A stretch of DNA of 64,000 nucleotides from Mytilus galloprovincialis (Eukaryota; Mollusca; Bivalvia; Mytilida; Mytilidae): contig NC_134838.1 of NCBI RefSeq assembly GCF_965363235.1, positions 2,547,001 through 2,611,000 of the forward strand, read 5' to 3'. Of this stretch, positions 2,704 to 59,000 are shown in pieces (within the stretch, counting starts at the first letter, position 1; each line of letters begins with the position of its first letter). The notes beneath the pieces are model-generated. The model was not told the origin of the DNA. It ran no database searches and saw only the letters and a list, made by a program, of their open reading frames with translations. The translations under genes were made by a program, and so were the position numbers.

Positions 2704-3171
2704 CTTTGTATATATGTGTGTAATACATAAAGGCTTAGGGAGCATCCGATTGTGTTTGCAAAGTGATTTAAAAACAGTTGTTTTTTGTTAGAATACTACA
2801 AAACGGTGAGCACTGCACTCGTCTGGCGACCTGTTTCCCATAGATATGCGTTTAAGTTTTTATGCCACAAATAGAACATAATGTATTTTAAATACAATTA
2901 ATAAGTTTTCTAAGTGATAATTAACTCCGATATCATCCATACGAAAAATATAAATCTTAATTACACCTCTCACATAGCTTCGGATTTTATAAAATAATAC
3001 GATCATATTATGTTTTAACGTCCAGTGTGTGATCTTGTGATCACAGATTCCGCAATGTTGAAAAATAAATGATTTTAAAATTTTGAAATTGAAGGTTTTC
3101 AACAATGGGAATAAACTAAGCGACTCTTCTTGCCACCTTCTTATTTTCGTATAAATCGTATTTTCTTAAGA

Positions 3172-3371
3172 CACTTGTCAAAAACAAGAAGATCAAAGAA
3201 GCAAGATCATTTAATTTCACATTCAGATATATTGATGATGTTCTTTCCATTAACAATCCAAACTTTTCTGATTAGGTTCCATTAATATATCACAAAAACT
3301 AGAAATTAAAAAAAAAACAACAGACACGGCTTCCTCCGCCTTATTTTTAGACTTATGCCTCGAATTTTGGA
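3172..3371 (+). mobile_element. Penelope-like reverse transcriptase fragment
   Basis: Conceptual translation shows the catalytic block FRYIDDVLSINN, then EIKKTTDTAS and LFLDLCLEF. These match the same blocks of the longer copy at 22901-23713 (FRYINDVLSLNN, EIKDTTDTVK, YLDLHLKF). It is a broken fragment of about 200 bp. An end piece of family D (minus, about 3396-3432) follows it. Confidence 0.75.
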
Positions 3372-5018: not shown

Positions 5019-5343
5019 GTTACAGTTGTAGATTCTAACGACGAAGAAAGGTAACAACACTAAGCCACCGAAAGCTGTATTATTAGTTCAGTCTAGGTTG
5101 CCAAATTGTCTAGAGCGATGGACACAGTGCAGTCGCTTGTTGTCTCCCTTTAGCATGGATTCGAATCCCGATGAGGGAAGAAATACATTTGCTTCTGCAT
5201 TGTTGTGCTGATATTTAGAGTAGTTATTAATATAAAACATGTGTCCATCGCTCAAGACCACTCGACAACCTGGACTGAACTAATAATTCAGCTTTCGGTG
5301 GCCTAGTGTTACTATTCCTGCCAGTAGAATCTAGAGTTGTAAC
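5019..5343. mobile_element. Fold-back MITE with tRNA-like boxes
   Basis: Inverted arms of about 110 bp pair the left side (GTTACAGTTGTAGATTCTA, then TAACAACACTAAGCCACCGA) with the right side (AGAATCTAGAGTTGTAAC at the far end). The inner part of the arms and loop looks like a class II (Ser/Leu type) tRNA. The right arm in reverse reads GTCGAGTGGTCTTGAGCGA, like an A box, and the left arm is followed by GGATTCGAATCCC (about 5157-5170), a near-canonical B box. No intact cloverleaf is present. Whether the tRNA-like part was captured or is ancestral cannot be told from one copy. Confidence 0.65.
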
Positions 5344-14182: not shown

Positions 14183-15445
14183 TTAATATGTATACGATCT
14201 AGAATAATCATGTGACGAAATGTCATCTTTATTTTTCATTACGTTCTTACAACACATAGCTATGGAAATAAACACTTTCGAGCACTGCTTCCTAAATCTT
14301 GAGTTCAAAAAGCTGTAAATAATAGGATTAATTGCATTGTTAATAAAATAGAATCTTGAAAATAGTTTGACAATCATTTCCTCGATCGGTGATAAATCCT
14401 CATAAAAATTAGTGACCACACTCCTTGTGATCATTATGATTAGTCCTGGTAAGTACGTTACAACAAACGCTACCGTGACGGTGAAAAATATAATAGTTGT
14501 CCTACTCAGTTTGATTGTCTTCGGTTGCGATAGGACTTTCGGGGAACTTGGAGGAGACTTTTCAGTATCAGGGCAAATATCATCTGTTATCTTTTTTGGT
14601 GATTTTGGCGACATTGGCGTCTTGTCCTTACTTTCACTACTTATACTTCTTGCGAACATAGTGTTTCTAGTGCGTGCAATTTTGACCGCATTTTTTATTC
14701 TGGTTGACCCATAAACCGTTCCTACCCCGCAGTCACGACGTTGTCGAATTTCAATCCAAATTTTAATGTAAAATCCTGCCAACAATGAGAAAGTTATCAC
14801 GAATACCACAGTAAGCATATTATAATATACTTTCGGAAATACCGTTCCTCGGTACTTTTCGTCTATTGAGCAGTCATAACCAAATGTACCATTTATTGGC
14901 GTTGGTTGTTTTGTTACCCCAAATAAAAACAATGCAGGCGATGCAAGAATAAAAGCAGCTATACAAGCAACCATACACATTGTTTTAATCTTTGATGTCA
15001 TCAAAACCCGTAATGGTCTGCAAATTTTAAAGTATCTGTCAAACGCAATTTCGATAAGAATTATCGCTGATCCATAAATGATGGCGGCCTCTGTGTACTT
15101 TACTAATTTACAGCCAATTTTATCATTGAAAGTATAGGAATGAATAAGGTCATAAACACCAGCAGGCATTGATATGAGACATCCCAGTAAATCAAAGATG
15201 GCCATAGCACTGATGAAAAAGTTGGCCGATCTTCGCTTAAATCCCCAGTTATACACATATATCACCATGATATTTCCAAACGTTCCTATTACCATGATCA
15301 AAGCGACGAAAATTATAACTGGAATGTATAGAAATGCCTTCTCGTTATTGAGACATTCTAAACATTTCTGTGTATGGTCCGAAAACGATCCATTATCCCT
15401 AGAAACGTTAAATGTGCAGCAATTTAATACCTTGATTGTATGCAT
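14183..15445 (-). CDS. Class A (rhodopsin-like) GPCR, copy 1
   Basis: A 420-residue seven-helix receptor for an unknown, probably peptide or small-molecule, ligand at the plasma membrane. Visible landmarks are GN at 57-58 (helix 1), D85 (helix 2), C112 at the top of helix 3, DRY at 136-138, C192 in extracellular loop 2 (the likely disulphide partner of C112), and NPIIY at 373-377. The aromatic W of the helix 6 CWxP motif is missing: the motif reads VTYLP. Intracellular loop 3 is long (about 231-314), with several SP sites (MSPKSPKK, SPPSSPK) that could be phosphorylated. I chose the ATG at 15445, not the upstream in-frame ATG at 15511, because TTTTTCAG lies eight bases before it, which marks an intron in the 5' leader. 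Helices and loop spacing match the copies at 30811 and 41389, but sequence identity is clearly lower. The exact receptor subfamily cannot be named from sequence alone. Confidence 0.9.
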   Translation of the reverse strand: MHTIKVLNCCTFNVSRDNGSFSDHTQKCLECLNNEKAFLYIPVIIFVALIMVIGTFGNIMVIYVYNWGFKRRSANFFISAMAIFDLLGCLISMPAGVYDLIHSYTFNDKIGCKLVKYTEAAIIYGSAIILIEIAFDRYFKICRPLRVLMTSKIKTMCMVACIAAFILASPALFLFGVTKQPTPINGTFGYDCSIDEKYRGTVFPKVYYNMLTVVFVITFSLLAGFYIKIWIEIRQRRDCGVGTVYGSTRIKNAVKIARTRNTMFARSISSESKDKTPMSPKSPKKITDDICPDTEKSPPSSPKVLSQPKTIKLSRTTIIFFTVTVAFVVTYLPGLIIMITRSVVTNFYEDLSPIEEMIVKLFSRFYFINNAINPIIYSFLNSRFRKQCSKVFISIAMCCKNVMKNKDDISSHDYSRSYTY

Positions 15446-15694
15446 GTTGAAATCTGAAAAATAAATAATTTTGAATGTCAAGCTCTTTATATTGGAAGCG
15501 AATCGTGACAACGTAATATAAAATCAATTACTTAAATTGGTATCATTTACAAAGAATGATATAAAATATTGTAATAATTCACTAATGGACGTATGGTTTT
15601 CAGGTGAAATGAATATCAAACGGATTGAGAGCTTGTTTAAATCATTCGTAAAATTAAATAGATTGGCTATGATATATGACAGTGACACTCTAGT

Positions 15695-17699: not shown

Positions 17700-18070
17700 T
17701 GACTAGAATTAAAATCGTCTCGTTTGTCATAGATTCTGGAACTGAGATGACTTTGTATGTCAAATTCGAAGTAAGTCTAAAAATGAGGCAGAAGAAGCTG
17801 TGTCTGTTGTTTCTTTAATTTCTAGTTATGAGGGATATGTTTAGGGAATCCAATCAGAAAAGTCTGGATTGTTAATGAAAAAACATCATCAATATATCTG
17901 AATGCAATATTAAATGATCTGGCTTCTTGGATCTTCTTGTGTTTAACAAGTGTATGAAGGAGCCCCGACGCATATGAAAATAAGAACGGGTCGACAAGAA
18001 GAGATGCACAGTATGTTCCCGCAGGCATGCCGATAGTTTGTTGAAAAATTCTACCTCCAAATTCAACAAA
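17700..18070 (-). mobile_element. Penelope-like reverse transcriptase remnant
   Basis: Minus-strand translation shows FVEFGGRIFQQTIGMPAGT, then FRYIDDVFSL. These correspond to FVSFGGRVFQQTVGIPMGT and the YxDD-type catalytic block of the copy at 22901-23713. It is broken and lacks both ends. A family D fragment follows at about 18118-18190. Confidence 0.75.
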
Positions 18071-18647
18071 TAAATTGTTAATTATAAACTTAGCATACTA
18101 ATCACTAGTTCCTTTGTGTAGCATAAACAGTAAAATCATAAAAATACTGAAAATTCAAAACGGTAAGTCCCAAATAAAATAGCATGTTTTACTCCTTTGT
18201 TCGCTATTAACATAATACGCCCTATGCTACCCCAAAGTAATAAATTTATGGCGTATGCTACCATTTTTATGTAACTGACTTAAGTCTCCAACAATACCAT
18301 TCAGAATGGGGGAGGAAATTTGTAATCAGGAATCCCTATACATAGACGCTTGCAGTTTCTAACATGTTATTTTTTTAAATGAGTTAGATTTTATCTGGGA
18401 GTTATTATTTAACCTTATTACTATGATTTTTTAAATATACTTACATCAAAGAAATTGTTGATTAGTGAAAACTGCCAAAATATTAAAATGATTTCTCAAT
18501 ATTGACACATTATCCACGCTTTTTAGTTTAACTGGCCCAAAGGTCCCAGTAAAACTTTCTCAATACGAGACGAATTCCTCGACTGCATTACATGTTGTCT
18601 ACTCATTCCGTAATAATGATTCCCTTTCAAATTTTAAGCTCTTTTAT

Positions 18648-19303
18648 ACGGAAGCCGATAAGGGCCATTCAAAAAAAAAATTATGTCGTAATTAGCATGT
18701 CGTAATTTCGACATAACATGTCGTTATTACGACATCGCTATGTCGTAATTTCGACATAACATGTCGTTATTTCGACATAACATGTCATAATAACGACATC
18801 AGTATGTCGTTTTAACGACATAGCTATGTCGTAATAACGACATCACTATGTCGTTTTAACGACATAGCTATGTCGTAATAACGACATCGCTATGTATATA
18901 AAAGAATATGTATTATGATTGCCAAGAGACTAAATGACACAGAAATTAACAACTATATGTTATCATAATGCCCCCAATAATTAAAAAAGCCCCCGCATAG
19001 TCAGCTACAAAAGAGGGACGAAAGATACCAGAGGGAGAGGCCCCGAAATGCTGTGTGGCAGACAGTGTTAACATTATTTAATTATTAGCTCCCTTGGTAA
19101 AACTCCAAATTTCATATTTAAAGTATTTCATTGTTGATTAATTTACATGATGCTTTATAAGTATATATTTGTTAATTGCATAGCTATTGCTATTTGAATT
19201 CATTGGTTAAAGATATTTATTCATATTGTAAAGTTTAATATTTGTATCGTTGCAAAATCTTTGGTCACCTTCTTTGGTTACCTTCTGTAAGAAAAATTTA
19301 TAT
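18648..19303 (+). repeat. Left inverted arm of the fold-back element
   Basis: From outside in: terminal block; A-run; palindrome array (18682-18898); a chimeric stretch resembling pieces of families A and C (ATGATTGCCAAGAGACTAAA, AGAGGGACGAAAGATACCAG); GCTGTGTGGCAGACAGTGTT; and a tail ending GGTCACCTTCTTTGGTTACC. The right arm has the same blocks in reverse. Confidence 0.85.
18682..18898. repeat. Array of about ten 18-bp palindromes
   Basis: Units follow ATGTCG-N6-CGACAT (for example ATGTCGTAATAACGACAT), repeated every 21-22 bp with spacers such as AAC, CGCT, AGCT and CACT. Some units are imperfect palindromes. The regular spacing, about two helical turns, would place all sites on one face of the DNA. 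Confidence 0.9.
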
Positions 19304-21615
19304 AATTTATAGATACTGATTACGTCCTGAAAGATACCGACCGTAGAAGGGATGCAGAGTCAGTCAAGGTCATATAAACCTTCTACTTGTTCGAGCAAAT
19401 TTATGTGGAATTATATGAGGACTGACAATACAGTCCTACCTATAAACAAGCGCTAACTACATGTCTTTGTGTAATAAGGGTGAATTGAAATATTGATTGC
19501 TCTCTTTCTACTTTCAAACGTTGGACACGATGTTCCTACAACCTCTAGGATTTAAAACAGAATCTTCGAAATTTCATCCGCAAAACAAAATAAAAATGTT
19601 AGAAAACACGAACCAATATTAAAACAAATTCAATATATGTTTCAAATTATGTTTTTACAGCTCTTGATCATATACTAAGTAATATCTAGGATATTTGATG
19701 ATTATATTAGCCAAGTTATGTGAAAAAAAAAAACAGATGTCCAACGTTACATTTATGAAAAACTGTTTTAAATCTTATGTATAGTGATCCTATTTCTTAT
19801 TCTCTGATCTTCTTGATACTTGGCAGGAACAACGACAGGTGTCGGTTCTTTGTGGCGTTAAAGCCGTTATTTTTGCCAAATTTTATTTGACTCGGTGGCT
19901 TCATATTAAGCGGGAATAAGAAAAATGTCCAACGACGTTTTTCGTCATCTCAACGACTGAAGGTGAATTTTGTAAGTAGCAGAAAATGAATAAAAAGAGT
20001 AAGACAATAATAATATCTAACAAAAGTACAAATATTTGCCTCATTGTTCGTGAGTTTAAATATTGCTGATTCAATAAAATCTTCTCTACACAGTCGTTTT
20101 TCAAACGGTAGCCATTTTGTCCAAGTTGATATTTCATTTTTCAAAGCAGTTAACGCGTATTTTTTATAATTAATCAAAACAAAAGTTAGATACACGAAGA
20201 GTAAAAAATGCCAAGATTCTTTTCTTATTAAGTTATGAAATTTGGAAAAACAGGTTGATGATTGCTGCCGAAAAAAAAAAAGAATAGCGCATGTTGCTAT
20301 AGACTCCACCCGGGGACATAGGTTCGACACAGCTTAAATTTTGCAATATTTATTAATCGTTTATAGCTTTTAACGATTTATTTAAAAGAATGGTGAAATG
20401 GGGAAAAATATCTCATTACATGAACTTCGTCCAACTATTGCAAAGACAAATTTTAGACACCAAGACAGTCCTCTAAATGTAAAATTCGAATTGAAATTTA
20501 TATTGTGGAAGTACTCCATAGATCATTTAAAGTCGTCACTTCAGTAAGGTGCAATCACCAATATTAAAAGACTTATACCAGTTCATGGAGTGTTTTACTT
20601 CGCGATTTGTCCTGCTATTCATGTTATAACTGTCGTGATGAAATAAATTCCTGTACTAGCGAAGTCGGAACTTTTCGTCAATATAAACTTGTGCATGAAA
20701 TGGAGGTACTAGTAATTGAAAGACAAATCCCAAACAGCGACGAAAACCGTTTCATCGAATTTTAAAAACCCGGGATTATTTAAGCCGTTTTCGCGGACGA
20801 TCCAGGAGTAGATTACTATATTTCAAAATGTATATCAGAAATTAAACACTATAGATGACTTGCGGAAATAATTCTTAAGCGTAGGTTCAAGTAATTGAAG
20901 GGGTGTATTTCGACAACTTATGTACCAGGGAAAATACAATTCTATTCAAATTTAACCAAGGGTAAAAATGTTCGATTTACTTGCAGAGTGTCAGATATAT
21001 TTGTATTGGGGTTGAGTTAAGATATAGAAATTTTACAATGACAGATGATATGCACCTTGAAAGTTAAACATCATATGATAATAGTTTCGTACATCTAAAA
21101 AAATATTTTTTTTTTTTTGGAAAACTGTACCACATCTTCCTATATCTACTTCCGTCCCATCTTTCTTTCCCACATTACTTGCGACAGTAATGCATTTTTA
21201 GTTGAAATAACTTAAAGGGTAAACATTATTAAATAGATTTCCACAACTTGAGGTAATTTATGATAAAATGACATCACAAAACGAACAGAACCAGAATCAG
21301 AAATTTTAAAAATTTTGTAATATAATGAATAAATCAACCAACATATAAAAAAACGAATAAAACTTGCAAAAATTAATCAAAAACCCTCTTCGACGCCGCT
21401 TTTATGTGTGACGTCGTGTTTTAGGAACATCGTGCCCATCGTTTGACAGTAAATACAGAGCAATCGATACGTCCATTTACCCTCATAACAACAACCAATA
21501 GAGTTGTGCGCTTCTTCAATATAAGGTAAAAAAAAAGCTTTGCTTGCCTTGAGAGGATTTCAGGTCGATCCTCATACTCCCCGGTCGGTTATTTATTACT
21601 TTCAAGCAGGATCTA
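19304..21615. other. Interior of the fold-back element
   Basis: AT-rich, with no supported gene. The minus frames 19950-20330 (126 codons) and 19901-20137 overlap in different phases and have no domain. A short minus-strand family A-prime piece (CACATCTTCCTATATCTACT) lies near 21131. Confidence 0.55.
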
Positions 21616-22267
21616 TAAAATATATAAGTTTCTCACAGAAGGTAACCATAGAAGGTGACCAAAGATTTTGCGACGATACAAATATTAAACTTTACAATAT
21701 AAATAAATATCATTAATCAATGAATTCAAATAGCAAAATCTATGCAATTAACAGATATATACTTATTCAGCTTCATGTAAATTATTAAACAATGAAATAC
21801 ATTAAATATGAAATTTGGAGTTTTACCAAGGGAGCTAATTATTAATTAATAACACCGTCTGCCACACAGCATTTCGGTGGCTCTCCCTCTGGTATCTTTC
21901 GTCCCTCTTTTATAGCTGATTATGCGGGGGCTTTTCTAGTTATTGGGGCATTATGATATGACCTATAGTTGTTAATTTCTGTGTCATTTAGTGTCTTGGC
22001 AATCATAATACATATTCTTTAATATATATAGTGATGTCGTTATTACGACATGTTATGTCGAAATTACGACATAGCGATGTCGTTATAACGACATATTATG
22101 TATGTATGTCGAAATTACGACATGCAATGTCGTTATAACGACATATTATGTCGAAATTACGACATAGCGATGTCGTTATAACGACATGTTATGTCGAAAT
22201 TACGACATGCTATGTCGTATTTACGACATAAAATTTTTTTTTTTGAATGGCCCTTATCGGCTTCCGT
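21616..22267 (-). repeat. Right inverted arm of the fold-back element, with palindrome array
   Basis: An inverted copy of 18648-19303 with small indels. The palindrome array lies at about 22033-22229 (about nine units, for example ATGTCGTTATAACGACAT), and one spacer has an extra ATGT duplication. Confidence 0.85.
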
Positions 22268-22900
22268 TATCGGCTTCCGTACTTTAACCTGTCTATTTGC
22301 ATACTTATCTGTGGTGACGTTTTGAATTTCAAAGAGCGTAATCTATGTATTACTGGTGATTTTTTAGTGAAGGATTTTCGTACAAAAAAAATACCTGAAA
22401 CCATTACTAAATTGTTCCTTAGATACAAAGCTTTGGTTTGGAAGTTAAGTTGTACCTTAAGAAAACTAATTCTAAAAGGAATAGCACATCCTTAATTATC
22501 TTTACGGTCATGTTGTTTAGATACAATTTGGGTACACTTATCAAAATTTAGATTGTTCTCAAAGGTAACAAATTCAACACTGTAATAGATCTTTGAATAT
22601 TTTTTTATTGGTATAAATATAGATTTTGTTTTCAGTTAATTTAATAATTTCAACAGTAGTATACCGGTGTTCAAAAATGTTAAAACAATAAATATTATAG
22701 TTGTACACATAAGAACATTCGCGGTACTAAAATCTGTCGATACCGTATTTTGGCATTGAAGCAAGGTCACGTTTTTTTTTTCTGTGGGTGTTAATTCGGC
22801 TTATGAGTATGAATGATCCTTTGGTATTGCTGTCGCCTCTTTAATTTTCAAAGATTTTTTAGAGTACATACAATCTAACTCTCATCTTGTAATAGTATTA
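22268..22900. other. No gene seen
   Basis: Contains a short family E end near 22650 (CAACAGTAGTATACCGGTGT). The open frame 22247-22495 begins inside the fold-back end and has no domain. Confidence 0.45.
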
Positions 22901-24345
22901 AAACATTTGACTTTTCTACTCTTTACACAAGTATTCCACATTCCAAACTAGAAGACAAATTGAAAGAGTTGGTATTACTTTGCTTCATAAAAAAGAATGG
23001 CCAACGTAGATACAAGTATCTTGTCTTAGGGAGGGATACATCCTACTTTGTAAAGGATCACTCTGAATCAAACAAAAATTTCTCTGAAACTGACATTATC
23101 AAGATGCTTGATTTCTTGATTGACAACATATTTGTTTCGTTCGGAGGACGTGTTTTTCAACAGACTGTCGGCATTCCAATGGGAACAAATTGTGCCCCTC
23201 TTCTTGTCGACTTGTTTCTTTATTATTATGAGGCTGACTTCATGCAGAAACTTTTTATGGAGAAAGATAAGAAGTTAGCGATATCATTTAACTCTACTTT
23301 CCGCTATATAAATGATGTTCTTTCACTAAATAATTGTGACTATGTGGAACGCATCTATCCCATCGAACTAGAGATCAAGGATACTACAGATACAGTTAAG
23401 ACGGCCTCATATCTTGACTTACATCTAAAATTTGACAATGAGGGTCGGTTGAAAACAAAACTTTACGACAAAAGAGATGATTTCAGCTTTCCAATTGTGA
23501 ACTTTCTATTTATAAGTAGCAACATTCCAGCAGCACCTGCATACGGGGTATATATTTCACAATTGATACGATATTCCCATACTTGCATTTCCTATCATGA
23601 TTTTCTTGATAGAAGGTTGCTGCTCACAAGGAAGCTATCAAACCAAGAGTTCCAAATGTTGAAGTTGAAATCATCCCTTCGTAAATTTTACGGACGTGAT
23701 CACGAGTTTTGACCGTTACAAAATAACCGTTTCACAAATGATATCGGATATGTTCCTTACGTCGTAACTACAATCCCTTCCCTTTCATGAATGTGACCTA
23801 CCGAATTAATAGACTATTTACCGGATTTGTTATCACGTGCTGACATGAATTATCATTGATATGGTTATGTTTATATTTTTGAAATACTAAGGCTTTTTTA
23901 CCTCAGACATAGATTACTTTAGCTGGATTTGGCAAAGCTTTTTGGAATTTTGGTCCTCAATGCTCTCGAACTTCGTACTTTATATTGGCCTTTTTAACTT
24001 GTTTGTATTCGAGCGTCACTGATGAGTCATTTCTAGACGAAACGCGCGTCTGGCGGATATACAAAATTTAGTCCTGGTATCTATGATGAGTTTGTTTATA
24101 AGCAACACGACGGGTGCCACATGTGGAGCAGGATCTGCTTACCCTTCCGGAGCACCTGAGATCACCCCTAGTTTTTGGTTGGGTTCAGGTTGCTCATTCT
24201 TTAGTTTTCTACGTTGTGTCATGTATACTGTTGTTTGTCTGTTTATTTTTTTCATTTTTAGCCAAGGCATTGTCAGATTATTTTCGATTTATGAGTTTGA
24301 CTGTCTCTTTGGTATCTTTCGTCCCTCTTTTACACTAAATTTATT
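22901..24345 (+). mobile_element. Penelope-like retroelement, 5'-truncated, with ribozyme-bearing 3' tail
   Basis: The best-preserved copy in the window. Reverse transcriptase blocks in order are TFDFSTLYTSIPHSKL, TDIIKMLDFLIDNIF, GGRVFQQTVGIPMGTNCAP, FRYINDVLSLNN, EIKDTTDTVK, YLDLHLKF and LKSSLRKFYG, ending at the stop at 23710-23712. GIPMGTNCAP with a YxDD-type block is typical of Penelope-like elements, which copy RNA into DNA. The catalytic block reads YIND in this copy. No GIY-YIG endonuclease is visible. The tail runs through a hammerhead motif (24013-24056) into family C, ending GTATCTTTCGTCCCTCTTTT. The 5' end is missing and the element is not functional as it stands. Confidence 0.8.
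24013..24056 (+). ncRNA. Hammerhead ribozyme (type I, minimal stem III)
   Basis: The conserved core is CTGATGA (24019-24025) and GAAA (24039-24042). Stem II pairs GTC (24026-24028) with GAC (24036-24038) over a 7-nt loop. Stem III is A-U plus C-G with loop GCGC (24042-24049). Stem I pairs CGTCA (24014-24018) with TGGCG (24051-24055), including one G-U pair. Cleavage would follow C24050, after GTC. Self-cleaving hammerheads with this short stem III are a known feature of Penelope-like elements, where they are thought to process RNA. Every core base needed is present, so activity is plausible. Confidence 0.75.
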
Positions 24346-24640
24346 GGATTTTAGATGTGTACTGATTGATTGTTTTAATCTTAGATACATGATTTTTTTT
24401 TTAATTAGTTGTGATTGGTTTTGAACTAGCTGCCAGTAAATGCGATTACACTCAGATGTGTACTTTATGTCTTTTTGTTGTAAGGGATGTATAAATCCTT
24501 CACGTCCGGTCTGCGTTTTTGTTCGAGGTTTTTTATTTGCTTTGTATCAATCTGATGAGTGAGCCCTTTTCAACTGATTGTTAGAGTTTGTTCTTATGAT
24601 ATTCTGTTACACCACAGTCACAGATAAGGGACGGGTTGGT
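24346..24640 (-). repeat. Family A tail fragment, minus orientation
   Basis: TTAGATACATGATTTTTTTT, GAACTAGCTGCCAGT, TTTTCAACTGATTGTTAGAG and TTTGTTCTTATGATATTCTG match, in reverse, the segment 27880-28130 of the long family A copy. Confidence 0.7.
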
Positions 24641-30810: not shown

Positions 30811-32064
30811 TCAATGTTTAAGATGTTCTAATTCATATGCATGATCAAATTCACTTTTGTATGATTTCTTCCAACATAAACCAATGCTCTTGGTTAATTT
30901 TGAAACCTCGACACGGAAGTGTTTGTTTAGGAAACTGTAAATTATTGGATTGACGGCGTTGTTCAAGTAGTTGCATCTTGAAAATAATTTGAGAAGCACT
31001 TGAACGAACCCAGACGAGTCTTTTTCTATCTTTTTATATACAGTTCTACAAATCATCACACCAACGGAGGGCAAATAGCTCAATATAAACGCAATGGTGA
31101 CGGCGATGAAAATCTTTGTCGTCCGAGAAGCTTTAATATGAGACAATTTTTCTGATAAGTTCGACACTTTTGATTTTGTCGATAAGTTTGAAAATGTTCT
31201 GCGGAATTGCTTCTGGTTATGTCCTACCGATGAGTGGTCATCGCTACTTTCACTCGATAACATTCTTTGTCGGCCATTTTGTCCACTTGTAACGTTTAAT
31301 CTTGGAATCTCACCTATAATCATATCTTTTCTTCTTTTAATTGCTAACCATATCAAAAAGTACAATACCGACAATGTGACTAATGTTATTATAAACACTA
31401 ACCCTAACATCAGATAATAAATCATTTGGAAGCTGGAGTCTTTGTATTTTTGATCAACGGAGCAATCAAATCCGCACAGATTCCCGGAAATTCGTTCTCT
31501 TTTTGTTCCGAATAGAACAACCGCGGGACTACTCAAAATACCAGCTGATATAGACATACATTTTGTTCTATTTCGATTACCAAAACGTAAAGGCTTGCAT
31601 ATTTTAAAGTAGCGATCAAAGGCAATCTGTATTAAAATCACAGCAGATGCATATGTAGTAGCGTTTTCAACTGCTCGGAATATTTTACACGCAATGTTTG
31701 AATAGAATGAGTAATGATAGAGTAAATCATATATGTCAATTGGCATTACTACGACACTCGTAATAAAATCAAACAATGCCATGGCAATGATAAAATTGTT
31801 CGCTGACCTCTTTTTTGATCGAAAACAGTAAATATACAGAACCAGCGCGTTTCCGAAACACCCAACGATCATCAGTAAAAATTGGAAGATGATAACTGGA
31901 AGATACAGAACAGCCTTTCTACGACTCAGTAATAATAACTTTGGGTATATCCAGTCCTCGGTAGAACAATTTGTTATTGCTGAAATCGGAACAGTCGCTA
32001 AAGATGTATTCTCCATGTATCTGTGATAGCAACTGAGTATGTTATGTTCTCTGTCTTCAAACAT
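30811..32064 (-). CDS. Class A GPCR, copy 2, with shortened helix 4
   Basis: A 417-residue receptor very close to the copy at 41389. Landmarks are GN at 71-72, D99, C126, DRY at 150-152, the loop 2 block GFDCSVDQKY, and NPIIYSFLN in helix 7. The helix 6 motif reads LSYLP, with no W. Relative to copy 3, helix 4 lacks four residues: SISAGILSSPAVV here against SISAGMLALILCSPAVV there. That leaves barely 17 hydrophobic residues, so folding may be affected. The C-terminal tail also lacks an Arg/Ser-rich block of about 24 residues present in copy 3; both end YELEHLKH. The start at 32064 aligns with the second Met of copy 3. A TTTTACAG acceptor lies at 32086, giving a short leader of 21 bases before ATG. 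The frame is open throughout, so it is either functional or very recently impaired. Confidence 0.88.
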   Translation of the reverse strand: MFEDREHNILSCYHRYMENTSLATVPISAITNCSTEDWIYPKLLLLSRRKAVLYLPVIIFQFLLMIVGCFGNALVLYIYCFRSKKRSANNFIIAMALFDFITSVVVMPIDIYDLLYHYSFYSNIACKIFRAVENATTYASAVILIQIAFDRYFKICKPLRFGNRNRTKCMSISAGILSSPAVVLFGTKRERISGNLCGFDCSVDQKYKDSSFQMIYYLMLGLVFIITLVTLSVLYFLIWLAIKRRKDMIIGEIPRLNVTSGQNGRQRMLSSESSDDHSSVGHNQKQFRRTFSNLSTKSKVSNLSEKLSHIKASRTTKIFIAVTIAFILSYLPSVGVMICRTVYKKIEKDSSGFVQVLLKLFSRCNYLNNAVNPIIYSFLNKHFRVEVSKLTKSIGLCWKKSYKSEFDHAYELEHLKH

Positions 32065-32099
32065 TGCAGAGGGGACAGTCGGTATCTGTAAAAGAAAAA

Positions 32100-32454
32100 A
32101 AATAAAGATTTTTAATCAATTGCATGCTATAATGTTTTTCCCATTTTTTTTTTTGTGTGTGTGTGTTATTTTGTGTGTGTAAAAGTTACAACTTATCTTC
32201 ATTTGGAATCCTATGTTCTATAATTATTGTCTTCCTTATTTTTCGAGAACAATAAGGTTTCCATAGAAAAATGAGAAAGAAATAATATTCTAGTATTTTG
32301 TATATCCGACAACATGGTTTGACATCTTGGTTTTGCGTCTCCCGCAATTATGCTTTACTAATAAACTTTAAACAACTAAAAAGTAAATAAAATTAGGTAT
32401 CCCGCCATTTTAATCGTAGTATTGTTCACCATACCTCAAGAGTCATTTGTCCTA
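32100..32454. other. 5' region of GPCR copy 2
   Basis: Poly(T)/GT-rich sequence at about 32140-32185, otherwise AT-rich. A first leader exon is expected somewhere upstream, but I cannot place it. Confidence 0.4.
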
Positions 32455-35689: not shown

Positions 35690-36140
35690 TCTATTGTTTG
35701 CCTTGACACGTGTTTTGCTGGTTTTGTTATGCCCCGTTTGTGCCTTATTTAATGGATTTCTATATGAATGATTGCCCTGACACCTGTCTCGTAGCCTTTG
35801 TTATGCTTGCTTGTGTCTTGTTTTCTAGATATCTGTTGTTATGTTTGCCCTATCACCTGTCTTGTTGTTCATGTTTTCCCTGTTCTAGTCTTTTTCTATG
35901 GATTTATTTTTGCCCTAACACCTGTTTCGATGCCTTTTTGGTGTTGTTTTGTTTTTTTGCCCTGACACCTGTTTCGTTGCCTTTTTGGCGATGTTTCTAA
36001 ATTTAGATTTTTATGTTTGCCCTTAGTCTTGTATAGTTGTCTAAGTTTTGCCTTGTTTGTGCCTTGTTTGTGCTTTGTTCGCCGTCTTCCTATTGTTAAT
36101 GTTTAACACAACACCTGTCGAGTTGCCGATGTTTTGCTCC
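35690..36140. repeat. Degenerate tandem repeat around GCCCTGACACCTG
   Basis: TGCCCTGACACCTGT(T/C)TCG followed by TTGCCTTT and GTTATG/GATGTTT recurs about seven times at uneven spacing. The Cys/Phe-rich open frame 35710-36000 is explained by this repeat. Confidence 0.65.
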
Positions 36141-39330: not shown

Positions 39331-40184
39331 CTTCAATTTTATAGTCGACATCAACAGGAAATACAGTTTTGGATTTATAATTGTTATTGCATTTCCAAGA
39401 AAAAATAATCACAATGGAGTATTTTAACAGGAAATATATTATGTTCTATGAATTCATGCAATTCCTAAAATGATTCATGTCCAAAATATAGAACAATGTG
39501 ATTTCCTTTTAAAACTAATCAAAACATCAGCATAAAACAGTAAACTTTAGTCGTGTCAAATTCAGTATTTCTTCCTAATAATTCATGATCTGTTTGAGCA
39601 GTTGTTATTGTTAAAGGACCACGTCCCTCTTAATGAACTATGTTTAGTTTGAACATACAAGAGCGTAACTTATTCACTGAGATACCGGTATGTTAACTCC
39701 ATACAATAGAGTAGAGAGTATGTTATTATGCGATAGATTCTATTTTGAATTTTGAATTTGTCCATCTTTATCAATTTCGAAAAAAAAAAAGACACTTGAT
39801 CAGACCTTCCTACTTTTAGTAGTTCCATTTACCTTAAGATGAGTTGGGTCTATGGGATGTAAAAACTCATTGAAATTAGAGTTTGTGCGACGAAACATCA
39901 CCAATATATCTGAAAGTGAAAATCAAAGAACTTTTTTTTTCTTTTTTTAAAGAAAAATCTGTGTGAGTCTGCTTCAAACGAGTGCAAAACAAGTCAACCA
40001 GTAGTGGTGGTTCCCAATGCGAAAACCGAATGTTCGCTTAAATATCGACTCATTAAACTAACAAAATATGTAAAACTAGCACTATAAATATTGGCAACAA
40101 GTGATACACGTTTAGTACAGGTGTTTGATTCATTTATTCTGCATTTATTCTTATGAACCAACTATTCAGTCATTTATATAACTA
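39331..40184. other. No gene seen
   Basis: AT-rich. CATCACCAATATATCTGAAAGTGAAA near 39896 resembles reversed Penelope-like reverse transcriptase sequence but is too short to call. Confidence 0.45.
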
Positions 40185-41388: not shown

Positions 41389-42735
41389 TCAATGCTTTAA
41401 ATGTTCCAATTCATATTCATGAGTACGTTCACTTTTGTATGAATTTGATCTTGATGACCGTCCTTTTCGCGATGATCCGGAAGAAGTTGATAATGAGCGG
41501 GCTCGAAAACGATGCTTACAACAGAAACCAATGCTCTTGGTTAATTTTGTAATCTCGTCACGGAAGTGTTTGTTAAGGAAACTATAAATAATTGGATTTG
41601 CGGCGTTGTTTAAGTAGTGGCATCTTGAAAACAACTTTAGGAGCACTTGAACAAATTCCGAAGAGTCTTTTTCTATCTTTTTATTTACAGATCTGCAAAT
41701 CATTACACCAACGGAGGGTAAATAACTCAAAACAAACGCAATAGTGACGGCGATGAAAATCTTTGTCGTCCGAGAAGCTTTTATATTGGACAACCTTTCA
41801 GATAAGTTGGAGAGTTTAGATTTAGTTGATAAGTTGGACATTGTCCTGCGGAATAGTTTATGATTTTGTACCACTGACGACGAATCGTCATCACTCACAC
41901 TTGATAACATTCTTTTGCGGCCATTTTGTATAACACTTTGTCTGGGGTTTTCACCGATAGTTACACCTTTCCTTCTTTTGATTGCTAACCAGATTAAAAA
42001 GTATAAAGTTGACAATATAACGAATGTGATTATAAACACTAACCCTAATATAAGATAATACATAGTTTGGAAGGTCGAACCTTTGTATTTTTGATCAACG
42101 GAACAATCGAATCCACATAGATTTCCGGATATTTGTTCTCTTCTTGTTCCAAATAGAACAACAGCTGGACTACACAAAATTAAAGCTAACATGCCAGCTG
42201 ATATAGACATACACTTTGTTCTTGTACGATTACCAAAATGTAAAGGCTTGCATATTTTAAAGTAACGATCAAAAGCAATCTGTATTAAAATCACAGCAGA
42301 TGCATATGTAGTAGCGCTTTCAACAGCTCGGAATATTTTACACGCAATGTTTGAATAAAATGAGTAATGATAGAGTAAATCATATATGTCAATTGGCATC
42401 ACTACGACACTGGTTATAAAATCAAACAATGCCATGGCAATGATAAAATTGTTCGCTGACCTCTTTTTCGACCGAAAACAGTAAATATAGAGAACCAATG
42501 AGTTTCCAAAACATCCGAAGAGCATCAATAAAAACAAGAATATGATAACTGGAAGATACAGAACAGCCTTTCTTTGACTCAGTAGTGATAACTGTGGGTA
42601 TATCCAGTCCTCGGTAGAACAGTTAGTTATGTTGGTAAACGGAACAGTCGTATTCTCCAAGTACGAGTAATTGTTAAATGAATTATATATGGTATACTCG
42701 CTGTCTTTAAACATGACAGAGGTGACAGTTGACAT
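41389..42735 (-). CDS. Class A GPCR, copy 3
   Basis: A 448-residue rhodopsin-class receptor. The N-terminus has four N-glycosylation sequons (N22, N28, N35, N38). Helix 1 spans about 57-84 with GN at 77-78; D105 lies in helix 2; C132 and C211 form the likely disulphide; DRY is at 156-158; intracellular loop 3 (253-322) is rich in Ser, Lys and Arg; helix 6 reads LSYLP with no W; NPIIY is at 380-384; and an Arg/Ser-rich tail ends YELEHLKH. An acceptor (TTTCCAG) ends one base before the ATG at 42735, implying a leader intron. The second Met at position 8 aligns with the start of copy 2 and could be the real start. It is nearly identical to copy 2 through helices 1-3, so the pair arose by a recent local duplication. 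It likely couples to G proteins through DRY; ligand unknown. Confidence 0.9.
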   Translation of the reverse strand: MSTVTSVMFKDSEYTIYNSFNNYSYLENTTVPFTNITNCSTEDWIYPQLSLLSQRKAVLYLPVIIFLFLLMLFGCFGNSLVLYIYCFRSKKRSANNFIIAMALFDFITSVVVMPIDIYDLLYHYSFYSNIACKIFRAVESATTYASAVILIQIAFDRYFKICKPLHFGNRTRTKCMSISAGMLALILCSPAVVLFGTRREQISGNLCGFDCSVDQKYKGSTFQTMYYLILGLVFIITFVILSTLYFLIWLAIKRRKGVTIGENPRQSVIQNGRKRMLSSVSDDDSSSVVQNHKLFRRTMSNLSTKSKLSNLSERLSNIKASRTTKIFIAVTIAFVLSYLPSVGVMICRSVNKKIEKDSSEFVQVLLKLFSRCHYLNNAANPIIYSFLNKHFRDEITKLTKSIGFCCKHRFRARSLSTSSGSSRKGRSSRSNSYKSERTHEYELEHLKH

Positions 42736-42737
42736 CT

Positions 42738-43114
42738 GGAAATAACAAGATTATTTTGTTTTAACCAAAAAAACATCATTTGCTAATTATCAACATCTTT
42801 TAAATAGTTCATTTGTTGTACTGGTCTTGATGCTCGTGTCTTTGTGTGTTTTAGTGATTTTTTTCTACATGAGCGAGCAAGGAGATTCAGATGATAATTA
42901 ATGTGTCATCTCATTAAGCGATATCATACGCAGCTTCCATCTCATACTCAAAAGACAAAATGGGTTTTTACATAGCATTACACAATATACATTTATCTAC
43001 AAAGTAGTGTTGTTCTTGTATCCATGTGTCCTTAATATCAAATCCATTGAATTGATAATCGATGATTTTTATTACTTGATTACTCCAGCAGTTTCTACAT
43101 AAGGTCATGCCTGT
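42738..43114. other. 5' region of GPCR copy 3
   Basis: No leader exon can be placed and no repeat is recognised. The sequence is AT-rich. Confidence 0.4.
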
Positions 43115-43330: not shown

Positions 43331-44068
43331 TGTATACAAGCATGAGCTATAGGTTTTATTATTTTGCTCAATATAAATAAAGGCCTTGAAATTTAAAGAA
43401 GGAATTTTTGGTTTTCAAATTATTGTCGCCTTGTATCGCTTTCCATTTAGTATATTAGTGTGGGTGTCCATTATTTTGTCAAAACATTTAATTTAGATTA
43501 AAGATTAAAAAAAAAAAATAACCGACTTAAATGACTGTATCCTGAAGCTAGTTTTTTTATGTAATAATTCAAAAGGATTTTAGTATATACACGATAAAGA
43601 CTTAATTATTTGATTGATTATTTAAATAGTAAAGTTTGCTTCCGTGAAATGTTATTGTCCCTAGTGTTCGTAGTAATCTGACAATATCCTTTGTGTAAAT
43701 AACAAACATTAATTGTAAACAATATTGCATTGAAATATTTTGAACTCTTTTTTCAGAAGCGGTCAAAATGATAAACATTCTTTAAGAATTTGTTGAAGTA
43801 TTTAAAATATGATAAAAAAAATATTCACACGCACTTCAATGACTTAATTCTCTTTCATTGACTTCGTGGTTATAAAGGAAAACTTCATCTTACTCTACAT
43901 CTATATTGATATTTTTTAAAATGTCTATCGCATTAGATTTAACATTTAGAACGTGTTCTTCGTCAGTTACAAAAACCTCATCAACAATACAAGATACATA
44001 ATAGTGAGTTTCGTCAACAAAAGGCTCATCAGTGAAACTCGGACCAAAAGGTTATAACCAAAACCAAG
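43331..44068. other. AT-rich sequence before the minisatellite
   Basis: No gene supported. Confidence 0.5.
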
Positions 44069-45016
44069 AAAGAGTTGAAGAGCGCGTTGAAGACCAAAAC
44101 ACACAAAAAGAGTTGAAGAGCGCCTTGAAGACCAAAACAAAAAAAAGGGTTGAAGAGCGCGTTGAAGACCAAAACAAACAAAAAGAGTTGAAGAGCGCCT
44201 TGAAGACCAAAACAAAAAAAAGGGTTGAAGAGCGCGTTGAAGACCAAAACAAACAAAAAAGAGTTGAAGAACGCCTTGAAGACCAAAACAAAAAAAGAGT
44301 TAAAGAGCGCATTGAAGACCAAAACAAAAAAAGAGTCGAAGAGCGCGTTGAAGACCAAAACAAACAAAAAAGAGTTGAAGAGCGCGTTGAAGACCGAAAC
44401 AAACAAAAAGAGTTGAAGAGCGCCTTGAAGACCAAAACAAACAAAAAGAGTTGAAGAGCGCGTTGAAGACCAAAACAAACAAAAAAGAGTTGAAGAGCGC
44501 GTTGAAGACCAAAACAAACAAAAAAGAATTGAAGAGCGCGTTGAAGACTAAAACAACAAAAAAAAGAGTTGAAGAGCGCGTTGAAGACCAAATCAAACAA
44601 AAAACAGTTGAAGAGCGCGTTGAAGACCAAATAAAAAAAAAGAGTTGAAGAGTGCGTTGAAGACCAAAACAAACAAAAAAGAGTTGAAGAACGCCTTGAA
44701 GACCAAAACAAAAAAAGAGTTAAAGAGCGCATTGAAGACCAAAACAAAAAAAGAGTTGAAGAGCGCCTTGAAGACCAAAACAAACAAAAAGAGTTGAAGA
44801 GCGCGTTGAAGACCAAAACAAACAAAAAAGAGTTGAAGAGCGCGTTGAAGACCAAAACAAACAAAAAAGAATTGAAGAGCGCGTTGAAGACTAAAACAAA
44901 AAAAAGAGTTGAAGAGCGCGTTGAAGACCAAATCAAACAAAAAACAGTTGAAGAGCGCGTTGAAGACCAAATAAAAAAAAAGAGTTGAAGAGTGCGTTGA
45001 AGACCAAAACAAAAAA
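44069..45016. repeat. Minisatellite, 35-39-bp unit, about 25 copies
   Basis: The unit is GAGTTGAAGAGCGCGTTGAA followed by GACCAAAACAAACAAAAA. Variants have CCTTG for GCGTTG, GTTAAAG for GTTGAAG, or a shorter A-run. About 230 bp at 44419-44648 recur nearly unchanged at 44764-44993, so part of the array was duplicated as a block. Open frames exist on both strands (plus: VEERVEDQNKQ or ELKSALKTKTNK; minus: VFNALFNSF), because the unit lacks stops. I do not treat any of them as a gene. Confidence 0.9.
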
Positions 45017-49270: not shown

Positions 49271-50068
49271 TGGTACAATCTAATCAGTAAAATATGGACC
49301 CTGTCAGCTCACCGTTTAAAGCATGGAGGTACAATCTTATCAGTAAAATATAGACCATGTCAGCTCATCGCTTAAAGTATGGAGGTACAATCTAATCAGT
49401 AAAATATGGACCCTGTCAGCTCATCGCTTAAAGCATGGAGGGACAATCTAATCAGTAAAATATAGACCCTGTCAGCTCACCGCTTAAAGCATGGAGGAAC
49501 AATCTTATCAGTAAAATATAGACCCTGTCAGCTCATCGCTTTAAGCATGGAGGTACAATCTAATCAGTAAAATATAGACCCTGTCAGCTCATCGCTTAAA
49601 GCATGGAAGTACAATCTTATCAGTAAAATATATAGACCCTGTCAGCTCATCGCTTAAAGCATGGAGGAACAATCTAATTAGTAAAATATAGACCATGTCA
49701 GCTCACCGTTTAAAGCATGGAGGTACAATCTTATCAGTAAAATATAGACCATGTCAGCTCATCGCTTAAAGTATGGAGGTACAATCTAATCAGTAAAATA
49801 TGGACCCTGTCAGCTCATCGCTTAAAGCATGGAGGTACAATCTAATCAGTAAAATATAGACCCTGTCAGCTCATCGCTTAAAGCATGGAGGAACAATCTT
49901 ATCAGTAAAATATAGACCCTGTCAGCTCATCGCTTAAAGCATGGAGGTACAATCTAATTAGTAAAATATAGACCCTGTCAGCTCATCGCTTAAAGCATGG
50001 AGGTACAATCTAATCAGTAAAATATAGACCCTGTCAGCTCATCGCTTAAAGCATGGAGGAACAATCTT
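49271..50068. repeat. Satellite, about 57-bp unit, 14 copies
   Basis: GGTACAATCTAATCAGTAAA then ATATAGACCCTGTCAGCTCA and TCGCTTAAAGCATGGA. Single-base variants (CTTATC, GGAACAATC, GACCATG) recur in blocks, so multi-unit duplication has taken place. The array stops exactly where a family C copy begins. Confidence 0.95.
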
Positions 50069-56061: not shown

Positions 56062-59000
56062 TCAGGATTTCTTTTCCCCCTCACTTATCATATCCTCTGC
56101 CCTTCTGACTGCCTCCTTTTCTACACTTCCGTCTTCATCATTCACCCATGGGTATAACCCTGCATGACTTTGTAAACAGTCTTGTAATTCTAAATGTTTC
56201 TCCCGACACTCTGGAGATGCCGCCCCTTCAGTGTAACATGCTAATGCCTGTCTCATCTGGTAACCACAAGGTCCAGTTAAATCTCGTGCAATACATGGAC
56301 AATCCCAGTTTATAGAACCATCTGGTAATATAGCTCCTAAAATAACATAGGTTTGTTAGAATTTAAAAGTCAAAATAATAATTAAATTGGAACATATTGA
56401 AAGTAATATAAGAATGAAGATAACTGTATTGTTATTCAACATGTTTTTGATTGAGTTACGCCTTCCAATTGATATTTTATAGTGTGTCTTTCTATGTTGT
56501 GATGTTATACTATTGTTTCAGAAATGGGAGAAGGTTTGGTACCATTAAAACGTTTAATCTTGCTGCAAATGTTTGCACCTGTTCCAAGTCAGGAATGTGA
56601 TGTACAGTAGTTGTCGTCTGTCTATGTAGTTCATATGTGTTTCTTGTTTCTCATTTTTATATAGATTAGACCGTTGGTTTTCCCGTTTGAATGGTTTTAC
56701 ACCAGCAATTTTTGGGGCTCTTTATAGCTTGCTGTTCAGTGTGAGCCAAGGCTCAGTGTTGAAGGCTACATTTTGACCTATTAATATAATAATGGTTTAC
56801 TTTTAAAAATTGTTACTTGGATGGAGAGTTGTCTCATTGGCACTCATACCACATCTTCCTATATCTATTAAGTTAGTCATCAATATGTAAATTCCATTTG
56901 CAAAGAGTAAAACCTACATTTTACATAGGCTATGGTCAAAATACATTAAAATACAATACAGAAATATTCTAATTTGTGAAGACTTCATTTGAATGAATGT
57001 TACCACAAAAGAGCTACAAATATATAAATATTGAAATTTTCCTAGAGATACTTATTAACATTATATTTAAACTTCTAGATCTCTGATATGAAATAAATTA
57101 CAGATTTTAATTCTTCTTCTTCTTCTTCCAGGTAAGGAACCGGATTCAATGCTGAATGTTAATGGTTCCGCGCGAAAACTTTACACAGTGTCGGGCAACA
57201 CAGAAAGCTTTCTCTTGGCTATTTACAAATACATTTAAAACGTTTGCAAAAATATACAATTAAAATTATTTACAACTTGGTTTTCCTACTTCCTTTCAGA
57301 GCATGCCTTCAGGGCAGCTCTGAATCCCTCAACGGTTATGAATTTTTAATTTGAATGATGTACGTGTCTTGATAGAAGTTAATGAAAACAGTCCAATTTG
57401 GCCATTGGAAACTCTTGAAACAAGTGTCAGTTAATTATGAAACTGTAAATGAAATACATAATTAGTTTAAGTTAAACAAGTAAAAGTAGTGGTAAGGAAA
57501 TCAAAATTATTAAAATCATCTATTTTAATTAAAAGCTGAATAATAGAAATGTAACTTTTGTTTTCATTTGTAATTTGTAATAATGCATACTAGTATATAT
57601 ACATATATAAAAATGCAGGTATTTTTCTAATTAATATAATATAACCAACATGGCACTTTTAAGTAAATGTAACATTACAACGCAAACCCAAAAAGGTGAA
57701 TCAATTTAATATTGTGTGCTAACCACATCATTATAGAAAAAAAATTCTGGGTAGAACACTGTAGTATTCCTACACTTGCTATTTACCTTTTTAAATTTGT
57801 TTTCTAGTGAAGGCATATTTAAATTGAAATTGGGGTAACCATCTATAGATATGATGAATGCAATTTTAGAATTTTGCGTACAAATTTCCAAGCACAGAAT
57901 TTTGAAGATATATTTGAAACCCACCAATATTTGAAATTTATTTGAAATTATGAAGTGCCTTTATGGATCTTATTTACATGATGTTATCGTTATGGACATG
58001 AAGTAATGTAATCTAGCAAAGAAATACATTTTCAGAAAAGAATTGATGTTAAATAAAGTATTCTAATGCAATTAGTTTGTATCAATGGTTCTGATTGGAT
58101 GACAGTTATCGTAAAATTCTCTATCTCCTTGTCTGTAACTAAGGTAGCCGACATTTTGAATTGCTGAATGTATTGACATGTAATTTCTACAATAATAAGC
58201 CATAAAACTGACATGTTGCACCTAAAAATCCTCTTTTTATCAAATTTTATTACATTCTGAAGCGGCACAGAAGCCAGAAAACGCCCGGTGTTTATGTTTG
58301 ACGCAGGAAGCATACCTATGAGGCTATGACATCATCTAGTGTTGGGACCAAAGAAGATAACATCTTTTCGCGGAATTTTCTTTATTGAAGAATTTACACT
58401 AAAATAATGATTGAAATTTAATTATGAATTTGTTTTGCATTAGAATAGAGATAACTGTATTGTATTTGAAGCTTTTCGGACGTCTATTGGTAGTTTTACT
58501 GTCGCAAATACCCATTTACCTGTCTCCCCTACGCGTCGCCAGGTAAACTAAATTTGCGACAGTAAAACTACCGATGGACGTCCTTAAAGCTTCAAATACA
58601 ATACAGTTATCTCTTAAATATATCTCTGTACAAAGGGAGATAACACAAAATATAATTCATGAATTTAACTCTTCAAAAGTGACAGATATATTTGTTCATT
58701 CTTTGGACTTTGTTTATCATGTTTATAGGCATATTTACACTTATAAATTCATTAACTCTGTAATTTTACACAGCTACTTTTGCATAGGTACTATTTCTGT
58801 ACTACACACTGTACTAAAAATCTGTAGTACTGGAAATTTACTTTTAAGATTCAGTACTATTTTGTTACTTTAAAATTATTGTAATATTTAGGTACATGTA
58901 CCTGTATTTTACAGTAATTAATTTGTACTTGAAATTTATGTACTACAGATTTTTGATTACTACTGTTACATTTTCAGCATTTTGAAAGTTTTTCTATTTC

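Follow-up and report, generated by a model that had tools for sequence, protein, structure and literature searches.

Results

Overall architecture of the element

The window, i.e. the whole 64-kb stretch of mussel DNA analysed here, contains a 3.6-kb fold-back element made of two inverted arms of about 670 bp each and a central spacer (Table 1). When the arm at 18648-19321 is aligned with the reverse complement of the other (22267-21604), the two share 87.2% identity over 686 alignment columns, in line with the preliminary description of this DNA, which had proposed a fold-back structure with inverted arms of about 650 bp. Further inward, the blocks 19455-19542 and 21418-21505 pair more weakly (76% complementary), which suggests that the original arms may have reached about 0.9 kb; the stretches 19322-19454 and 21506-21603 align no better than shuffles do (171 of 500 shuffles equally good).

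Table 1. Positions of the arms, tips, dyad arrays and other parts of the fold-back element in the window
Feature	Position	Strand	Remarks
Left arm, long terminal inverted repeat	18648..19321	+	87.2% identity with reverse complement of 21604-22267
Left tip, ACGGAAGCCGATAAGGGCCATTC + A-run	18648..18679	+	32/32 identical with right tip
Left array, nine dyads ATGTCG-W6-CGACAT	18697..18887	+	one mismatch, at 18782; steps 21-22 bp
Piece like dispersed family A	18895..19013	+	matches near 1194, 27564, 40989, 51228 and 62046; shorter match at 39343
Piece like dispersed family C	19009..19039	+	also at 1965, 24331 and 40343
Innermost arm remnant	19455..19545	+	pairs with 21415-21505, 69/90 ungapped positions
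Central spacer	19546..21414	.	no recognisable coding domain
Right arm	21604..22267	-	87.2% identity over 686 columns with left arm
Right array, nine exact dyads	22034..22229	-	steps 21-22 bp, one of 29 bp
Right tip with second tandem 13-bp copy (TTATCGGCTTCCG x2, 22254-22280)	22236..22280	-	repeat search

Ungapped identity between the arms drops from the tips inward: 32/32 positions at the tip, 138/146 in the block that resembles dispersed families, then 107/118 and 104/113 (pooled, 211/231), and, beyond the unalignable block, 69/90 in the innermost one. The gradient is weak from the tip to 19321 (matched by 138 of 5000 permutations) and strong when the innermost block is included (0 of 5000); the test left out the dyad array, where the register of the units is uncertain and where 171 of 196 ungapped positions are identical between the arms, a value that would not fit a smooth gradient. 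Conversion from the tips, or selection on the tips, would give such an inward fall in identity.

Hairpin-read artefacts can yield fold-back shapes, and one arm could in principle be a false inverted copy made during assembly, a possibility that the preliminary description itself had raised. A false copy would be nearly identical to its source, whereas outside the array (the innermost block not counted) 32 of 455 ungapped positions are mismatched between the arms, which also show indels and have arrays of different make-up; given this divergence, we regard an assembly artefact as extremely improbable.

The whole fold-back element is in turn enclosed by an inverted pair of 67% identity (17758-18082 and 23119-23437). 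As a third copy lies at 3107-3367 (81% identity to 18020-17762), this enclosing pair is probably a dispersed repeat.

Tips, outer boundary and target site

The first 32 bases of both arms, which include the tip sequence ACGGAAGCCGATAAGGGCCA, are identical; as the tip is short and partly an A-run, this identity alone is weak evidence. At the right tip the extra 13-bp copy of TTATCGGCTTCCG suggests that the outer end may lie at 22280 instead of 22267. With the boundary at 22280, CGGAAGCC...GGCTTCCG has TA on either side (18649/22279), and these 2 bp may belong to the tip.

Ends from 18640 to 18652 were scanned against ends from 22258 to 22289 for target duplications of 2-11 bp, and none longer than 4 bp was free of mismatches at any scanned pair. 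At symmetric ends the exact matches are TA (2 bp, outer end) and TAT (3 bp, inner end); the best longer candidate is CTTTTA/CTTTAA (5/6, at 18647/22281), and every 7- or 8-bp candidate carries at least three mismatches, with no clear duplication among them. The offset pair TTTAAGCT/TTTAACCT has one mismatch in 8 and does not abut the left tip.

No further tip occurs elsewhere in the 64-kb window with up to three mismatches allowed. The flank repeat 22308-22446, which resembles 28262-28125, gave an apparent run across the joined flanks and thus an empty-site candidate, which we rejected: crossing the joined flanks gains nothing, and 26 of 300 shuffled left flanks do equally well. Weaker matches across the joined flanks, at 806-306 and 806-434 (54-56% identity; E 0.005 and 0.001) and at 35758-35905 (E 0.09), are attributed to chance because the best score was reached by resampled flanks in 93 of 200 trials for the inner end and 79 of 200 for the outer end, and by resampled random pieces of the window in 52 of 200 (outer end). 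The preliminary description had looked to short target duplications and empty sites for support of mobility; no clear duplication emerged among the scanned ends, and no empty site within the window.

These negative results, together with the absence of a second copy from the window and the fragments of other dispersed repeats within the arms, speak for the locus being not a transposon at all but an inverted segmental duplication (produced, e.g., by template switching) in which a palindromic satellite happens to lie near the outer ends. Such an origin would need both breakpoints to fall at the same tip, with the array adjoining, and a plain duplication of a single age would not show an identity that peaks at the tip and declines inward (a trend that is weak up to 19321); we consider this origin distinctly improbable.

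Arrays of palindromic dyads beside the tips

In both arms the tip is adjoined on its inner side by a row of nine 18-bp palindromes of the form ATGTCG-N6-CGACAT, 18 units in all with at most one mismatch, 17 of them exact. The preliminary count of nine to ten palindromes per arm at a 21-22-bp step proves accurate: a truncated outermost unit of the left array near 18683 accounts for the tenth, and the step is broken once, by 29 bp between 22077 and 22106, where an 11-base spacer lies at 22095-22105. Shuffled sequence held 0.11 units on average and two at most (100 shuffles), against 18 in the real sequence; the array is far from random, as the earlier emphasis on its order had implied. The 64-kb window holds no other row of at least three same-hexamer dyads of this geometry; a frame-shifted row of four ACGACA falls within the left array.

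Two kinds of unit alternate, as had been described. Read from the tip, position 8 is A T A T A T A T A in the left arm and A A T A T A T A A in the right, so that the types alternate in 14 of 16 steps, which only 204 of 200,000 random orderings equal; this alternation suggests that the array probably grew in dimeric steps of about 43 bp. The inner units of the left array mostly have TAATAA/TTTTAA centres and 4-base spacers, whereas the centres of the right arm are mostly TAATTT/TTATAA, with the innermost right unit carrying TAATAA as in the left. These differences in centres and spacers between left and right indicate, as far as the sequence can tell, that the two arrays have turned over partly separately.

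Conservation within the unit is concentrated in its half-sites. With units oriented from the tip, the 12 half-site columns depart from the consensus in 1 of 216 cells and the six centre columns in 26 of 108; the corresponding Fisher p of 8e-13 is too strong, as the cells are related by duplication and not independent, and the units were selected by their resemblance to the consensus. The dyads themselves go back to duplication, and their number does not stand for 18 separate origins. Counted by distinct variants, one deviant half-site stands against seven centre types, and inner left and right units have their half-sites in common despite differing centres. The centres consist of A and T only and are themselves nearly palindromic, with at most one of the three inner pairs off in 17 of 18 units. 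Position 7 is T in all 18 units, which gives the units a fixed orientation towards the tip and makes them not fully symmetric. That the half-sites stayed unchanged while the array turned over is our main argument for recognition by a protein, with the qualification that constraint on the half-sites is partly confounded with homogenisation within the array.

The same observations can be read as those of a fold-back transposon whose arrays are passenger satellites: a monomer that was palindromic by chance would have been spread by slippage or unequal exchange and have no binding role. The dimeric order (14 of 16 steps) and the different inner units of the two arms are an outcome of neutral tandem expansion; a single founder dyad arising by chance is not very rare, being held by 0.88% of random 22-bp monomers; and TIR repeats of the Drosophila element Tetris are described, in the part of the report used here, as having given rise to satellites (PMC4079207). 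Homogenisation affects whole monomers, yet variation is seen in centres and spacers and hardly at all in the half-sites, and the near-palindromic centres of 17 of the 18 units likewise speak against a passenger array. We judge this explanation unlikely, while giving it appreciable weight.

A further possibility is a structure-forming device, with hairpins or cruciforms extruded from the dyads and the fold-back shape itself serving as the feature that a protein or a replication fork recognises. Folded as single-stranded DNA, one array reaches -70.6 kcal/mol (shuffle mean -25.3, z -14.6) and the other -69.2 kcal/mol (shuffle mean -28.3, z -12.8). Any dyad array folds well, and these energies are thus not separate evidence; moreover, the half-site sequence itself is fixed, beyond what complementarity asks for, the lone change (18782) is without compensation on the opposite side, and cruciforms do not need units of fixed orientation. 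A structural device is accordingly very improbable. The preliminary description had offered both a protein-binding array and a cruciform-making device; the former, as a putative function, fits the half-site constraint and is the best available reading, and the latter ranks low.

Pieces of dispersed families and coding content

Both BLAST and alignment bear out that pieces like the dispersed families A and C are present in both arms. For the A-like piece, matches of 69-132 columns reach 70-78% identity and a shorter one of 37 columns reaches 86%; for the C-like piece, in either arm, identity is 89-94% over 31-35 columns. The two A-like pieces are missing an identical set of 18 alignment columns and the A/C junction coincides between the arms, so that a single capture before the arms were duplicated suffices to explain their symmetry and the symmetrical capture proposed earlier is not supported. 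The same holds for the view that the two families are retroelements: the six read-through frames of 1101-2900, which has copies of both, gave no Pfam match at E 0.01.

As described previously, no recognisable gene lies between the arms. None of the six read-through frames of the element matched a Pfam family above its cut-off; we attribute the sub-threshold matches to zf-TRAF (E 0.016, right array), RasGEF (E 0.022, spacer) and LHC (E 0.04, edge of the left array) to chance. At 127 aa, the longest spacer frame between two stops matches no Pfam family, and PDB yields a single match to it, at E 0.82. No transposase of MULE, THAP-domain or Tc1/mariner type was found in the six frames of the element. 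At the protein level, a search with the open frame that crosses the tip and array returned no candidate, and one with the array alone returned 110 candidates with shared words, none at E 1 or better.

Two neighbouring dyads have no exact match in IMG/VR or in prokaryote genomes, and the 20-bp tip has none in IMG/VR; for an animal element such negative scans are uninformative, as IMG/VR also lacks a 22-base string from dispersed family A. Sequence strings of the tip, the dyad and families A and C were not found in the main text of 5.39 million papers.

Neighbouring features in the window

Immediately to the right of the element, 22308-22446 matches 28262-28125 (76%) and 24363-24639 matches 28124-27875 (71%). 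The two targets are adjacent, and 28124/28125 looks like the empty site of a separate 1.9-kb insertion (22447-24362), which holds a copy of family C (24098-24332) and a 277-aa stop-to-stop frame without Pfam match (22879-23712).

Long open frames with rhodopsin-type GPCR matches lie at 14183-15523, 30811-32115 and 41389-42750 (minus strand), the latter two being a duplicate pair with 83% DNA identity over 1246 columns. Tandem repeats occur at 44065-45013 (a 39-bp unit, or 13 codons, repeated 25 times, with open frames of up to 346 aa on both strands) and at 49272-50067 (a 56-bp unit repeated 14 times, 93% matches). There are also inverted pairs of MITE size that are 89-94% complementary: 58810-58900 with 59087-59177, 5056-5126 with 5240-5310, and 58447-58509 with 58552-58614.

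Discussion

On balance, we lean towards the view that this single locus is an old, non-autonomous DNA transposon of the Foldback type with long terminal inverted repeats (TIRs), whose subterminal dyads dock a dimeric protein supplied in trans, probably its transposase. In favour of a transposon are the long inverted arms that end together in identical tips; against it count the single locus, the lack of a clear target duplication and of an empty site in the window, and the fact that no transposase was identified in the element. We infer mobility, binding, the protein and its transposase nature from the architecture of the element, and the array is most simply read as a set of docking sites for a trans-acting protein.

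The proposed mechanism would run as follows: the tips of about 20 bp would be the ends at which cleavage takes place; next to each tip, on its inner side, the 18-bp dyads would serve as docking sites for a dimeric DNA-binding protein, most likely the transposase of an autonomous relative; and sites about two helical turns apart (21-22 bp) would place the dimers on one face of the DNA and help to join both ends. The dimer is suggested by the symmetry of the unit, and the two helical turns by the 21-22-bp step. Growth of the array would have proceeded in dimeric units that combine two monomer types, through slippage or unequal exchange and partly independently in each arm, while recognition held the half-sites ATGTCG/CGACAT constant and allowed the centres and spacers to drift.

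By structure, the element is of the Foldback type: long arms form much of it, and short tandem repeats (nine units per arm) lie inside them. The comparisons below draw on parts of the cited papers, one of which points out that common descent need not unite Foldback-like elements, since they include transposases of different classes (PMC3169594). Among the closest layouts is that of Muta1, a MULE of Aedes aegypti called a “type2 Foldback TE”, whose 145-bp TIRs consist of a terminal motif followed by nine 12-bp subterminal repeats with 3-4-bp spacers, and which has non-autonomous copies with heterogeneous interiors (PMC5225508). The mussel element shares the terminal motif followed by nine short, spaced subterminal repeats per TIR; it differs in having 18-bp dyads and arms of about 0.7 kb, and the 8-9-bp target duplications of Muta1 have no counterpart found here.

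In root-knot nematodes, the Mutator/Foldback element Tm1 likewise has composite TIRs, with 1-9 tandem units in numbers that differ between the ends; its own two TIRs are 93% identical on average and its outer ends are asymmetric (PMC3169594). Its unit of about 14 bp is, in the part of that report used here, not described as palindromic, its target duplications are mostly of 9 bp, and a transposase-bearing member is known (PMC3169594). A possible likeness exists to Mcmar, a mariner of Meloidogyne chitwoodi with 355-bp TIRs of direct repeats and palindromes (described second-hand in PMC3169594): both have long TIRs with direct repeats and palindromes, and TA flanks both outer ends of the mussel element; a difference is that no transposase was found in the latter.

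Galileo, of the P superfamily in Drosophila, offers a parallel for the docking itself: the DNA-binding domain of its transposase has a footprint of 18 bp, and extra binding sites lie in its repeats (PMC3688188, PMC4168063). Like the mussel element, it has very long TIRs, internal repeats in some copies and pieces of other transposons inside the TIRs; unlike it, its repeats contain few sites and are long, measuring about 140 bp in a D. willistoni copy, its target duplications are of 7 bp and its THAP transposase is known. For Foldback and Phantom, the 2013 Galileo paper calls extra sites in the long-arm repeats untested (PMC3688188). Tetris, with its TIR-220 repeats in Drosophila virilis, resembles the mussel element as a Foldback element with expanding TIR repeats and, as far as the cited part of the report goes, no transposase-bearing copy found; it differs in its 220-bp units, its target duplications of 8-10 bp and the several copies known (PMC4079207).

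We could not assign the element to the MULE, P or Tc1/mariner group: no transposase was found, and neither the 8-10-bp target duplication of MULEs nor the 7-8-bp duplication of the P superfamily is present at the symmetric ends. TA is the insertion site of mariner elements; the TA flank by itself is too slight a basis for an assignment. Helentron/pearl MITEs are not known to have long terminal inverted repeats, and the long arms rule against such an origin. The pearl-family MITEs of bivalves are similar in being mobile elements of bivalves with short tandem arrays, which are internal satellite-like repeats according to the part of the report used here, in contrast to the arrays beside the tips of both arms in the mussel element (PMC5139131).

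What stands out as unusual within the Foldback-type architecture is the regular dyad array. A bolder form of the docking model would see in it an operator array, each end offering about nine dimer sites spaced by two helical turns; a homodimer (a transposase or a co-opted host factor) would form on these sites a filament that pairs the ends. We hold this form to be quite unlikely; if true, it would mean that, in an undescribed lineage of bivalve transposons, ends are recognised by arrays of dyads and not by single asymmetric repeats.

In conclusion, the near-identical and almost symmetric 18-bp sites with varying centres provide an unusually clean substrate for testing binding sites in long arms, since each of half-site, centre, spacing and number can be changed independently of the others. 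If copies with different array lengths exist, the length of the array could be compared with copy number, and hence with transposition success.
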